Origin: Epilithonimonas sp. JDS
Lineage (GTDB): Bacteria > Bacteroidota > Bacteroidia > Flavobacteriales > Weeksellaceae
NCBI RefSeq assembly: GCF_021261315.1
Contig: NZ_JAJSAX010000001.1
Span: 744,001-808,000 of the forward strand
Direction of reading: 5' to 3'
Length of the DNA stretch: 64,000 nucleotides
In this document: positions 46,074 through 53,140 of the stretch, piece by piece
How positions within the stretch are numbered: position 1 is the stretch's first letter
Layout of the letters: each line of letters begins with the position of its first letter
Program-made: the position numbers and the translations under genes
The notes under the pieces: generated by a model
Told to the model about the DNA's origin: nothing
What the model saw: only the letters and a program-made list of their open reading frames with translations
The model's database searches: none

Positions 46074-46631
46074 TTATATATCATCTTTATCTTTTTCATA
46101 ACCTTCGTAATAATACGACTGCTCAATCCCTTTAAATATAATCTCTCTATTTTCTACCTCATCTGTTAAGTTTTCCTTAAGCAAAGTTCTCAATTCCAAA
46201 TCATTGATTGGACTGCGCTCCATCGACTGTAAATACAGTGTTTTATCTACAAATTGCCAGTTGACCACTTTTTTTAAATTAGACTTTAAAATCATATCCA
46301 ACCAAATCCGCATCGTTCTGCCATTGCCTTCCATAAAAGGATGTGCGATGTTCATCTCCACATATTTTGCGATGATTTCTTCAAATGTATTTTCAGGCAT
46401 TTGTTCGATTTTTGCAAGAATCTCATTCAAATACAAAGCTGTGGCGAATCGGAAACCACCTTTGGAAATATTCTGAGTGCGTATTTTACCCGCAAAGTCA
46501 TACAATCCATCAAATAAATATTGATGAATCTCTTGCAAACCTTTGGTTGTACCAATTTCTAGTTTTTCAATGGCGCCACTTTCGAATAAACGGTACGCAT
46601 TTTCCAAACTATTTTTGTCTATGTTTTTCAT
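46074..46631 (-). CDS. Fic family protein, class III (auto-inhibited AMP transferase)
   Basis: 185 aa. The Fic active-site loop H-P-F-M-E-G-N-G-R is at residues 97-105, with catalytic His97. The flap region (Y-D-F-A-G-K-I-R) is at about 44-51. The C-terminus contains S172-Y-Y-Y-E176-G, a perfect match to the inhibitory [S/T]xxxE[G/N] motif that in class III Fic proteins (NmFic) lies C-terminal. It would transfer AMP (or another nucleotide group) to a protein target, with its own C-terminus blocking activity; no antitoxin gene is adjacent, which is normal for class III. The target is unknown. Neighbours are the TA module and the DNA repair pair. Confidence 0.92.
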
Positions 46632-49214: not shown

Positions 49215-50408
49215 ATGAATCTTCACGAGTATCAATCAAAAGAGATTTTAGCAAAATACGGGGTTAATATCCAACGTGGTTTTGTTGCAAACAATGTGGA
49301 CGAAGCTGTGTCTGCTGCCGAAAAACTTACTGCTGAAACTGGAGCGCAAGCTTGGGTAGTAAAAGCTCAGATCCACGCTGGTGGTAGAGGAAAAGGTGGC
49401 GGTGTAAAGTTCTCTCCAAATATGGACAAACTGAAAGAAAACGCTGGAAACATCATCGGAATGCAATTGATCACACCTCAGACTTCTGCTGAAGGTAAAA
49501 AAGTACATTCTGTTTTGGTAGCTGAAGATGTATATTATCCTGGAGAATCTGAAACTAAAGAATTTTATGTTTCTATTCTTCTAGACAGAGCTTTAGGGAA
49601 AAACACGATCGTTTATTCTACAGAAGGTGGAATGGACATCGAGCACGTTGCAGAAGTTACGCCTCACTTGATCCACAAAGAAGTGATCGACGCGGCTTAC
49701 GGATTGCAAGGTTTCCAGGCTAGAAAAATTGCTTTCGGACTTGGTCTTGAAGGGAATGCTTTCAAAGAATTCACAAAATTCATCACGTCTCTTTACAACG
49801 CTTACATCGGGATCGATGCGTCTCTTTTCGAGATCAATCCGGTTCTTAAGACTTCTGACAACAAAATTATCGCTGTAGATGCAAAAGTAACTTTGGACGA
49901 CAACTCATTGTTCCGTCACAAAGACCTTGCTGAATTGAGAGACACAAGAGAAGAAGATCCATTGGACGTAGAAGCTGGTGAAGCTGGTCTTAACTTCGTG
50001 AAGTTGGACGGAAACGTAGCTTGTATGGTAAACGGAGCTGGTCTTGCAATGGCGACTATGGATATCATCAAATTATCTGGCGGAAATCCTGCAAACTTCT
50101 TGGACGTAGGTGGAACTGCTGATGCACAGAGAGTTCAGACTGCTTTCGGGATCATCTTGAGAGACCCGAACGTAAAGGCGATCTTGATCAACATCTTCGG
50201 AGGGATCGTAAGATGCGACAGAGTGGCGCAAGGTGTTGTAGATGCTTACCACGCAATGGGAAGCCTTCCAGTGCCATTGATCGTAAGATTACAAGGAACC
50301 AACGCTGTAGAAGCTAAAAAACTAATTGACGAGTCCGGACTACCTGTTCACTCTGCAATTACTTTGGACGAAGCTGCAAACAAAGTAAAAGAAGTTCTTG
50401 CTAGATAA
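49215..50408 (+). CDS. sucC: Succinyl-CoA synthetase, ADP-forming, beta subunit
   Basis: 397 aa. ATP-grasp N-terminal domain (M-N-L-H-E-Y-Q-S-K-E-I-L ... V-V-K-A-Q-I-H-A-G-G-R-G-K-G-G-G-V-K) and C-terminal CoA-ligase domain (N-G-A-G-L-A-M-A-T-M-D, N-I-F-G-G-I-V-R-C-D). TCA-cycle enzyme making ATP from succinyl-CoA. The alpha subunit sucD is not next to it, so the two subunits are encoded apart in this genome. Codon use is more GC-biased at third positions than its neighbours, as for a highly expressed gene. Strong terminator follows. Confidence 0.96.
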   Translation: MNLHEYQSKEILAKYGVNIQRGFVANNVDEAVSAAEKLTAETGAQAWVVKAQIHAGGRGKGGGVKFSPNMDKLKENAGNIIGMQLITPQTSAEGKKVHSVLVAEDVYYPGESETKEFYVSILLDRALGKNTIVYSTEGGMDIEHVAEVTPHLIHKEVIDAAYGLQGFQARKIAFGLGLEGNAFKEFTKFITSLYNAYIGIDASLFEINPVLKTSDNKIIAVDAKVTLDDNSLFRHKDLAELRDTREEDPLDVEAGEAGLNFVKLDGNVACMVNGAGLAMATMDIIKLSGGNPANFLDVGGTADAQRVQTAFGIILRDPNVKAILINIFGGIVRCDRVAQGVVDAYHAMGSLPVPLIVRLQGTNAVEAKKLIDESGLPVHSAITLDEAANKVKEVLAR

Positions 50409-50426
50409 TAGCTGGAATCAAATTAT

Positions 50427-50462
50427 AAAAAATGCCCTTGAAAATTTCAAGGGCATTTTTAG
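50427..50462. terminator. Bidirectional terminator after sucC
   Basis: AAATGCCCTTGAAA and TTTCAAGGGCATTT are perfect complements, with A-run before and T-run after. Serves sucC (+) and the convergent PIN gene (-). Confidence 0.9.
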
Positions 50463-50504
50463 TATATTTATTTCTAAAATTATCCGATTATTATCATCTT
50501 GTAA

Positions 50505-51047
50505 TTAGGGTTTTATTATATTAATTTGCGTCGAATTGAAAATATCAAAATCTTTGTCATCTGTAACAAAAAACCAATTGTTTTTTTCACAAATATGCAT
50601 AAAATAACAATCATTAAAATCTAAAAAATTATTATAATAAGTCAATACTGAATCTAAATCTATGCTATTGTATTGATCATTATACTTATCACTTACTTTT
50701 TCAATTTGCTTAATTGCAGATGAAATTGCTGCTCTAGTGTTTTTGCATCTTTCTGTTTTAAAATAATCCTTTTTAAAGTTCGATAAAATATTACCTTCCT
50801 GTTTGTAAATATCAAAATCTAGTCTTAATGATGCATTTGAAAACTCCGATAAAATAAGGCTATTCACAATAATAGAACAATTTCTAGATAATAAGTCCGA
50901 TAAAAAATTGGAAAGTATTTGTTGTTTTTTTGCGTTAGTATTACCTATTGGACAAAACAAAAACATCCAAATATTATTATCAAAAAAATACGAATTATTA
51001 GATTTTATAGAATGAGAACTGATATTATCCATATTCTCAGGCACCAT
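50505..51047 (-). CDS. PIN domain protein (putative ribonuclease) of the ATPase-STAS-PIN cassette
   Basis: 180 aa. The PIN acidic residues are in place: D23 in Y-F-F-D-N-N-I-W, E68 in L-I-L-S-E-F-S-N, D146 in L-D-F-N-D-C-Y-F, and D163/D164/D166 in V-T-D-D-K-D-F. Such a constellation usually binds one or two Mg ions for RNA cleavage, as in VapC toxins and some effector nucleases. The gene overlaps the preceding STAS-like gene by 11 nt and is the last gene of a three-gene cassette; no VapB-type antitoxin is beside it, so it is probably controlled by the STAS/ATPase part instead. Codons are AT-richer than sucC. Confidence 0.85.
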   Translation of the reverse strand: MVPENMDNISSHSIKSNNSYFFDNNIWMFLFCPIGNTNAKKQQILSNFLSDLLSRNCSIIVNSLILSEFSNASLRLDFDIYKQEGNILSNFKKDYFKTERCKNTRAAISSAIKQIEKVSDKYNDQYNSIDLDSVLTYYNNFLDFNDCYFMHICEKNNWFFVTDDKDFDIFNSTQINIIKP

Positions 51048-51390
51048 AAAAATTAGAATTTATAAAATTATCTAAATCATTTCTTTCTTTAAAATACTCT
51101 TTTGCTCTCTCTATTACTAATTTAAAAAGTGGTAAATCCTCTTTTTGAACATTAGCTAACTCTAAATGTTTAGATAAAAACTCTTGGTTATATAAACTAT
51201 CATTACTGTAGAATTGCCCAATTGCAGCATTTAAAAACGCTGTAGTCATTAAAAAAATATCCGAGAAATCCAATTTAATATTTTTAGATTGGGAAAACTC
51301 CTCAATTATTTTTCTATAAACCAAATCTCCATCTTCCGTTTTGACAGCGAATTTAGAATTAATTAAGGTATGGACTGTTATTGTTTTCAT
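51037..51390 (-). CDS. STAS-like domain protein (DUF4325)
   Basis: 117 aa from ATG 51390; a TTG two codons upstream is less likely. The DUF4325 core K-L-D-F-S-D-I-F-L-M-T-T-A-F-L-N-A-A-I-G-Q-F-Y is present at about residues 39-61; in STAS-type folds a Ser/Thr in this region can be phosphorylated. DUF4325 proteins are commonly encoded next to a GHKL ATPase, which recalls anti-sigma / anti-anti-sigma partner switching, but this function has not been shown for the family. It links the ATPase gene and the PIN gene in this cassette and overlaps the latter by 11 nt. Confidence 0.85.
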   Translation of the reverse strand: MKTITVHTLINSKFAVKTEDGDLVYRKIIEEFSQSKNIKLDFSDIFLMTTAFLNAAIGQFYSNDSLYNQEFLSKHLELANVQKEDLPLFKLVIERAKEYFKERNDLDNFINSNFYGA

Positions 51391-51414
51391 TTTCAATGCA
51401 AATTTAAAATAAAA

Positions 51415-52318
51415 TTATTTAAAAATTTCATCAATATTTATGTCTTCAAATATTTCATCTTTGAAATAGTAAAATGTATCTGGATTTTGTAAATCAAATT
51501 CTAAGTTAACTATTGTTCCTATAAAAGAAAAATTTAAATCGGTCATAAATTTTTTCCCTTCACGAAGTTCCCAATAACCATTTGATGAGATTACTTGCAT
51601 ATTCCCTTTGCTAAGATTGATAAAATCAAATATTAAGCCTAAACCTAAGCCACCAGATATGTTTCCAGTTTTAGTTGTATTTCCAGAAACCATCGCCCAA
51701 TCAATACAATCACTAGATTTCATTGTTGAAGATTTAAAAAAATCTATAACGTTACTAACAATTGTATTTCCTGTATCTACGATGGTGACATGTAATTTTT
51801 TCCTTTGAGGGTAAAATTGTCCACAAGTATGAATGTGTTTACAATTTACCATGTGTTCTTGCATTTTCAAAAAGCTCATAAATTGTAAGATTTATTTCCT
51901 TTTGTAACCGTTTACTTAATTTTGGAAACTCCGCCTTTTCTAATAGTTCTTTTTGAATGTAATAATTATACTCTTCAGACTCTGTTTCTTTAAATTTTTT
52001 ATATGGTATTTGAGTCGAAAATTTATCATCTATTTTTTCAAAACCAAAATCAGTTAAAAATTGGTTTCTAATAAAAATATCATTTTTAATATTTTCTCTT
52101 TCGACAATTTTTACAATATTTTTTTTTAATTCTAAATCTTCAATTATTGCTCCTAAGACAGATACTAAATTTGCCTCAAACCATTTTACATTTTTGAAAC
52201 TTAGTTCAATTACGGAATTATAAATTGGAGATAACTCTTCATGAAATCTCAATAAAAGTTCATAACCTCCTATAGTAGAAGTAATTCTATTTGGAAGATA
52301 AAACTTATAAACTCTCAA
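51415..52318 (-). pseudogene. GHKL-type ATPase gene split by a one-base frameshift
   Basis: Two overlapping frames together form one ~300-aa protein. Frame 1 (TTG 52318 to TAA 51839) has a STAS-like N-terminal region, then ends shortly after the N box E-L-F-E-N-A-R-T-H-G. Frame 2 (open through 51415) continues H-I-H-T-C-G-Q-F-Y-P-Q, the D box V-D-T-G-N-T-I and the G-G-L-G-L-G-L lid. Removing one A from AAA at 51845-51847 joins them as T-H-G-N-C-K-H-I-H-T-C-G, giving a normal family sequence. It could be a mutation, a sequencing error or recoding. It starts 9 nt after the punA TAG stop and heads the STAS-PIN cassette. Confidence 0.82.
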
Positions 52319-52327
52319 TTTTTCAAT

Positions 52328-53140
52328 CTAGTAATTCTTTACCAAACCTTTTACAAGCTTAATAACATTCGGCATCGCTTTATTAGCCGCTTCCAGAACT
52401 TCTTCGTGAGAAACTGCAAAGGCAATATCCGGTCCGCCAAGATCTGTAATGATTGAAAGACAGAAACAATCCATTCCCTGATGTTTTGCAACAATCACTT
52501 CCGGAACAGTACTCATTCCGACAGCATCACCGCCGATTGCTTTTATCATTCCATATTCAGCTGGTGTTTCGAAAGTTGGTCCTGACAAAGCCACATAAAC
52601 ACCTTCTTTGACATCAATATTTTCTTCTACAGCAATTGACTTAGCCAACGCAATCATCTTGCGGTTGTAAGGCTCACTCATATCTACGAAACGTGGTCCG
52701 AATTCGTCGATGTTTCTGCCTCGTAATGGATGTTCCGGCAGCATATTGATATGATCTGTCACAATCATAATATCAGCAACTTTGAAGTTTGGATTCACGC
52801 CGCCGCAAGCATTGGAAAGGATTAAATTTTTAATGCCCAACAAATGAAAAACCCTGAACGGAAAAGTCACCGTTTCAATTGAATAACCTTCGTAATAATG
52901 AAAACGGCCGCTCATCATCAAAACTTTTTTGCCTTCCAAAATTCCGTAGATTAATTTTCCGCCGTGACCAACAACCGTAGTCTGAGGAAAATTGGGAATA
53001 TCTTTATAATCTAAAGTGTGAATAGCCTCAACCTCGTGCTGAAGTTTCCCTAAACCAGAACCCAAAACAATCGCAAAATCAGGTGTTTCCCCGATAATGT
53101 TCCTGATGAATTCTGCTGTTTCCTTATACTTTTCTAACAT
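52328..53140 (-). CDS. punA: Purine nucleoside phosphorylase I
   Basis: 270 aa from ATG 53140 (an upstream in-frame start at 53179 lies inside lpxK and is not conserved). Motifs: V-L-G-S-G-L-G-K-L near residue 26, phosphate-binding G-R-F-H-Y-Y-E-G, L-S-N-A-C-G-G-V-N, S-G-P-T-F-E-T-P-A-E-Y and V-G-M-S-T-V-P-E. Trimeric PNP of the inosine/guanosine type in purine salvage. Its start lies 17 nt inside the lpxK 3' end, so they are coupled. The accessory ATPase-STAS-PIN genes follow its stop after 9 nt. Confidence 0.94.
   Translation of the reverse strand: MLEKYKETAEFIRNIIGETPDFAIVLGSGLGKLQHEVEAIHTLDYKDIPNFPQTTVVGHGGKLIYGILEGKKVLMMSGRFHYYEGYSIETVTFPFRVFHLLGIKNLILSNACGGVNPNFKVADIMIVTDHINMLPEHPLRGRNIDEFGPRFVDMSEPYNRKMIALAKSIAVEENIDVKEGVYVALSGPTFETPAEYGMIKAIGGDAVGMSTVPEVIVAKHQGMDCFCLSIITDLGGPDIAFAVSHEEVLEAANKAMPNVIKLVKGLVKNY

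Follow-up and report, generated by a model that had tools for sequence, protein, structure and literature searches.

A probable vapKSC locus with an interrupted kinase gene between sucC and punA of Epilithonimonas sp. JDS

The SpoIIAB-SpoIIAA and RsbW-RsbV partner switches control sigma factors. The locus described here, a cassette at positions 50,505 to 52,318 of a 64,000-nucleotide stretch of Epilithonimonas sp. JDS DNA (contig NZ_JAJSAX010000001.1, positions 744,001 to 808,000; the whole stretch is called the window), appears to differ from those switches in that its switched partner would control an RNase instead of a sigma factor. The closest described system is the vapKSC operon, reported by Chambers et al. 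(EMBO J, 9 June 2026; PMC13373217) in Escherichia sp. E4736. According to the main text of that paper, the STAS protein VapS keeps the PIN-domain RNase VapC inactive, and the authors propose that upon DNA damage or phage infection the GHKL kinase VapK phosphorylates VapS and so frees VapC. The VapS-VapC complex, toxicity with its neutralisation, and protection from phage were shown for the Escherichia system, in which a phospho-mimic in VapS abolished neutralisation. Escherichia VapK was insoluble, making biochemistry impossible, and activation by single-stranded DNA (ssDNA) was demonstrated for the related CapK; phosphorylation of VapS by VapK and activation of VapK by ssDNA are inference even in Escherichia. 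The same text counts 289 vapKSC instances, 103 (36%) of them at most 10 kb from another immune gene, and describes CapK-CapS, which likewise pairs a GHKL kinase having an N-terminal STAS-like part with a STAS substrate; CapS, however, represses by binding DNA, and CapK bears an additional helix-turn-helix at its N-terminus (PMC13373217). In contrast to CapS, the STAS protein of the window has a short tail only and sits beside a PIN toxin. We consider it very probable that the locus descends from vapKSC and was acquired at its site between sucC and punA; it is probably no longer a working switch.

On the minus strand, from 52318 to 50505, the genes for a kinase-like protein, a STAS-like DUF4325 protein and a PIN protein follow one another in that order, the first of them divided between two overlapping open reading frames (ORFs) in different frames:

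51839..52318, minus strand: vapK, first piece, 159 amino acids (aa), TTG start; N-terminal part, then the beginning of the GHKL domain, including the N-box (E148, N152, H156)
51415..51879, minus strand: vapK, second piece, an ORF of 154 aa in the other frame; TCGQ, DxG (G1 box), GGLGL (G2 box) and C-terminal GHKL part
51839..51879, minus strand: frame-change region of vapK, the overlap of the two ORFs
51037..51396, minus strand: vapS, DUF4325 STAS-like putative antitoxin, 119 aa; PF14213 (1.8e-11), PDB 9z7o_A (4e-5)
50505..51047, minus strand: vapC, PIN-domain putative RNase toxin, 180 aa; PDB 9z7o_C (0.005), invariant acids, AlphaFold2 fold

The vapS and vapC genes overlap by 11 nucleotides (51037-51047), the kinase-like gene starts 9 nucleotides beyond the punA stop, and the cassette is convergent to sucC (49215-50408). 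At 25.2%, its G+C content lies below the 36.2% of the window, and 3 of 1244 sliding 1,814-bp segments are equally low. ORFs and base composition thus bear out the initial annotation, which had described an AT-rich three-gene cassette on one strand, in this order and with this overlap, on the punA side and pointing toward sucC. Its gene identities held for the STAS-like DUF4325 protein (Pfam) and for the PIN protein (family and fold) and need one qualification for the ATPase, which is divided between two ORFs. Its proposal that a GHKL/STAS partner switch gates a PIN nuclease in defence was right in outline and agrees with VapKSC as presented in the main text of PMC13373217; its view of the trio as an undescribed system had to be given up, since the trio is that already published system.

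Kinship with VapKSC is most readily seen in VapS and VapC, each of which matches its counterpart chain in the VapS-VapC crystal 9Z7O. The sole PDB sequence match up to E = 1 is Escherichia VapS for the former and Escherichia VapC for the latter. VapS, a solid match to the Pfam DUF4325 model, has T52 at the phospho-site (S48 in Escherichia) and, beyond its STAS domain, a 17-residue tail past F102 (C-terminal region 94-116 in Escherichia). Tails of 12-29 residues occur across the 68 loci with all three genes in the survey described below. Catalytic PIN acids are present in VapC, whose D23 aligns with the catalytic D28 of the Escherichia protein; D23, E68, D146 and D164 are invariant in a 53-sequence alignment. 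The Pfam PIN match of window VapC alone is sub-threshold (E 0.0081, 17.2 bits against a cut-off of 23.6), and the protein is not among the 47 of 53 aligned family members that match PIN at E <= 0.001; its AlphaFold2 model (predicted local distance difference test score 92.7) has a predicted fold matching VapC-type PIN proteins. Gene order, VapS phospho-site, VapS tail and catalytic Asp of VapC are alike in the window and in Escherichia, while the window locus, known from sequence, differs in its two-frame vapK and in having Thr for Ser. Alternatively, the cassette might be a different, undescribed GHKL-STAS-PIN system that merely resembles VapKSC, as its strong divergence from the Escherichia proteins (E 4e-5 and 0.005) and its Thr could suggest. 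Yet the order of the genes is conserved, as are the tail and the catalytic and phospho-site residues that align, Thr is found in 26 of the 68 trio loci, and the main text of the paper permits Ser or Thr at this site (PMC13373217); we regard such a separate system as very unlikely.

Descent from vapKSC is further indicated by related loci. Peptide patterns of the VapS alignment yielded 82 loci, comprising the best 80 of 139 genome loci and 2 viral loci; these are related sequences rather than independent events, and the profiles for K, S and C (the kinase, STAS and PIN proteins) were built from these same loci. All three genes stand side by side in 68 of the 82, and a kinase match is adjacent to VapS in 72. 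The phospho-site is Ser or Thr in all 72 loci with a kinase match, including all 68 trios, so that natural variation supports the central step of the published switch: the site is kept at every locus examined that has a kinase match. Seven loci have neither kinase nor PIN, and in six of them (L032, L063, L082, L084, L085 and L086) the site is Pro, with Thr kept in L023; the Pro-bearing, partnerless VapS-like proteins look as if they are no longer switched. Kinase matches are missing from 9 of the 82 loci, namely these seven together with L010 and L027, which have C without K, and in L041 a contig edge truncates the kinase to a fragment. Conversely, K occurs without C in four (L020, L035, L039 and L074, the contig of the last ending past VapS).

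The initial annotation had proposed a search for the trio in other genomes, and co-occurrence proved not to be rare: the trio was complete at the 68 of 82 loci and, in a separate sample of 395 genomes, at 5 of 5 other VapK loci. The broad DUF4325 family is present in 66 of these 395 genomes of the phylum, and of 30 DUF4325 loci drawn, 9 have K, S and C, another 2 lack K but have S (accompanied by C in one), and the remaining 19 are no VapS trios. Co-occurrence of the trio is thus limited to the VapS subfamily and does not extend to DUF4325 as a whole. A plain VapBC-like pair with a kinase-like gene as chance neighbour was also considered, because the fold of VapC resembles VapC-type toxins. 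This candidate was ruled out by the co-occurrence at both sets of loci, and we give it next to no credence: a kinase match adjoins VapS in most of the 82 loci (72), the identity of the phospho-site tracks the presence of the kinase, and VapS is a DUF4325 STAS-like protein, not VapB. The likeness to VapBC lies in the PIN-domain toxin fold; the predicted antitoxin differs, being a kinase-switchable STAS-like protein.

Two members of the survey, L024 and L028, are full trios on metagenome contigs labelled archaeal (Methanosarcinaceae, Euryarchaeota), for which mis-binning is possible. At L027 (1227-7747), a VapS-like gene is accompanied by a PIN gene of reduced length and by no kinase match, and the two lie between genes resembling the mod and res genes of type III restriction-modification.

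A working VapKSC has one uninterrupted VapK, and the locus is not classed as such because vapK is interrupted. Both pieces match one single ORF in relatives, and the kinase ORF reaches at least 250 aa in 67 of the 72 relatives with a kinase match. Those 67 and L002 make up 68 aligned intact kinases, none of which varies at E148, N152, H156, the D and G of DxG or the three Gs of the G2 motif. The frame change falls between the N-box on the first piece and the G1 box on the second. In addition, window VapK has Ser where all 68 intact relatives have Asn, as does P0171, an intact protein of 300 aa with 90% identity to the first piece and 92% to the second. The Bergerat fold of VapK is closest to SpoIIAB. 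The paper's main text assigns an aromatic residue, F54 of Escherichia VapK, to a putative ssDNA site (PMC13373217); window VapK has W46-F47 as candidate counterparts of F54, and an aromatic residue fills the W46 column in 66 of the 68 kinases.

Whether the split is real bears directly on function. If it were a sequencing or assembly error, the kinase would be intact in the living strain and the locus an ordinary working VapKSC, a reading in keeping with the retention of nearly all conserved kinase residues by the two pieces and with the long ORF of most relatives (at least 250 aa in 67/72). A second record, P0065, nevertheless carries the same shifted-frame product (100% identical over 149 residues), though it may come from the same strain, and the Asn invariant in 68/68 relatives is changed as well. 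We hold an intact kinase to be unlikely and, on balance, infer that the split probably reflects genuine loss. Programmed frameshifting could instead yield VapK as one protein, or two chains could assemble, as the overlap of the ORFs and the conserved residues kept would allow; against this, single-frame relatives are the rule, one of them about 90% identical, and kinase matches in more than one frame occur in just 3 of the 82 loci (L051, L054 and L061), where the breakpoints differ. Either route seems highly improbable, although no search aimed at slippery sites or structures was made. L012, L080 and L081 have one short kinase match each. The window kinase is most likely dead, judging from its sequence. 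The initial annotation had already seen that the ATPase would need repair; what it did not draw was the consequence, a copy probably unable to switch.

Several observations weigh against our interpretation of the locus as vapKSC with a lost kinase. The sequence match of window VapC to the VapC of 9Z7O is weak (E 0.005). Neither vapK piece alone gives a significant match to a Pfam ATPase model, and a significant GHKL match to either is likewise absent in PADLOC-DB and NCBIfam, scans of which with the cassette proteins gave nothing convincing. The N-terminal part of VapK is described as STAS-like in the paper's main text (PMC13373217), and the label rests on the paper, as STAS proteins reach just E ~0.1 in the fold search. 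Finally, a frameshift present in a single assembly may stem from faulty sequencing, and P0065 may derive from the same strain.

In the mechanism that we propose, VapS would bind the PIN RNase VapC and block its activity. In relatives whose VapK is intact, this SpoIIAB-like kinase, a proposed sensor of ssDNA, would phosphorylate the site equivalent to T52 and thereby break the VapS-VapC complex, upon which the freed VapC would cut RNA and stop the infected cell. In the window copy, with N-box and G boxes on separate chains, phosphorylation of VapS is unlikely, and VapC should therefore stay held by VapS; with a dead kinase, the toxin would be held permanently. VapS and VapC of the window are predicted to function and switching to be lost. 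Loss of VapK may be a safe route of decay, given that loss of VapS first would free the toxin, and the locus offers one plausible instance, with the trigger gone and the antitoxin-toxin pair still in place. It also adds a member from a Bacteroidota host to a defence system described only months ago.

Acquisition between sucC and punA is suggested by same-genus genomes. The comparison was possible in 2 of 20, punA not being found within the 10-12 kb downstream of sucC in the other 18; in these two (G015 and G008), sucC and punA are vapKSC-free neighbours about 840 and 940 bp apart. Their homology to the window ends at the sucC stop (50408) and restarts at the punA stop, at 52330 or 52325, delimiting one further feature:

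50409..52324, no strand assigned: segment without extended counterpart in the two same-genus genomes having sucC beside punA (homology comparison)

Just past sucC, on the cassette's sucC side, an inverted repeat at 50433-50455 has perfect 11-nucleotide arms followed by a T run and looks like the sucC terminator. Window VapS was matched (E <= 0.001) in 4 of 59 genomes, its own included; of the other three, G030 has the full trio, and two have weak VapS matches with an internal stop. Such a patchy distribution would suit a set of defence genes that is mobile. A viral scan with the single sequence found no relative, and one with the alignment turned up two distant VapS relatives, neither accompanied by K or C, so close viral carriage of the cassette was ruled out by these scans; distant VapS relatives, at 29-32% identity, are found in one plasmid and two phage records. 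PADLOC-DB was also scanned with 10 neighbouring ORFs (of 24 of at least 150 aa in 40-63 kb) and gave one match, a Fic-like protein (46074-46631) about 3.9 kb from the cassette that matches the candidate family PDC-S04 (7.8e-94) and is a weak sign of a defence neighbourhood.

Three of the loci with K and without C, L020 (Mesoflavibacter), L035 (Dokdonia) and L039 (Tenacibaculum), all flavobacterial, have uninterrupted VapK-like and VapS-like genes and no PIN match. Directly upstream of the kinase, each encodes a 678-684 aa protein that matches the PADLOC dCTPase family (1.3e-114, 9.3e-120 and 2.3e-118, respectively):

L020:5044-8315, L035:5033-8312 and L039:5089-8315: dCTP deaminase (PADLOC dCTPase), VapK-like kinase and short-tailed VapS-like protein

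The phospho-site is kept at these loci, and their VapS tails measure 5-7 residues, against 12-29 in trio loci, which fits because the role ascribed to the tail in the paper's main text is inhibition of VapC (PMC13373217). The partnerless L063 (7) and L082 (4) are also short-tailed, and the feature is not confined to the deaminase-linked loci. The deaminase-linked form suggests a modular switch. Together with a second GHKL-DUF4325 pair in the genome of the window (below), it suggests that the kinase-STAS pair can be swapped among effectors, in addition to its published forms, the transcriptional CapKS and the PIN-linked VapKSC. We give about even chances to the fuller proposal that VapK-VapS is a portable switch on different antiviral effectors, PIN RNases at most of the loci and a dCTP deaminase at L020, L035 and L039, where VapS would have lost a tail directed at PIN and the kinase would act through protein contact to govern the depletion of nucleotides, no PIN toxin taking part. 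The word "deaminase" is absent from the VapKSC paper's main text, as distinct from its supplements (PMC13373217), and the deaminase-kinase-STAS arrangement was not found in print in a search of full-text literature that took in few subscription papers and no preprints. A search for the dCTP deaminase family across the class matched 379 of 395 genomes, mostly through short zinc-deaminase stretches among the matches listed, and was uninformative; the two strongest matches (2.3e-158 and 1.4e-122) are at loci without K, S or C. At L162 (2-3893), a deaminase like those of L020, L035 and L039 lies in an operon with an apparent E1/ThiF-like protein, with no kinase or STAS match. The genome of Epilithonimonas sp. 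JDS itself also holds a second set, with no PADLOC match below E 0.02 and distinct from the cassette, in which a predicted GHKL protein (362 aa), a DUF4325 protein (110 aa) and a predicted membrane protein (193 aa), the GHKL and membrane labels being readings of the translations, are encoded at L128:344-2314 (contig C19, about 192.2-194.1 kb).
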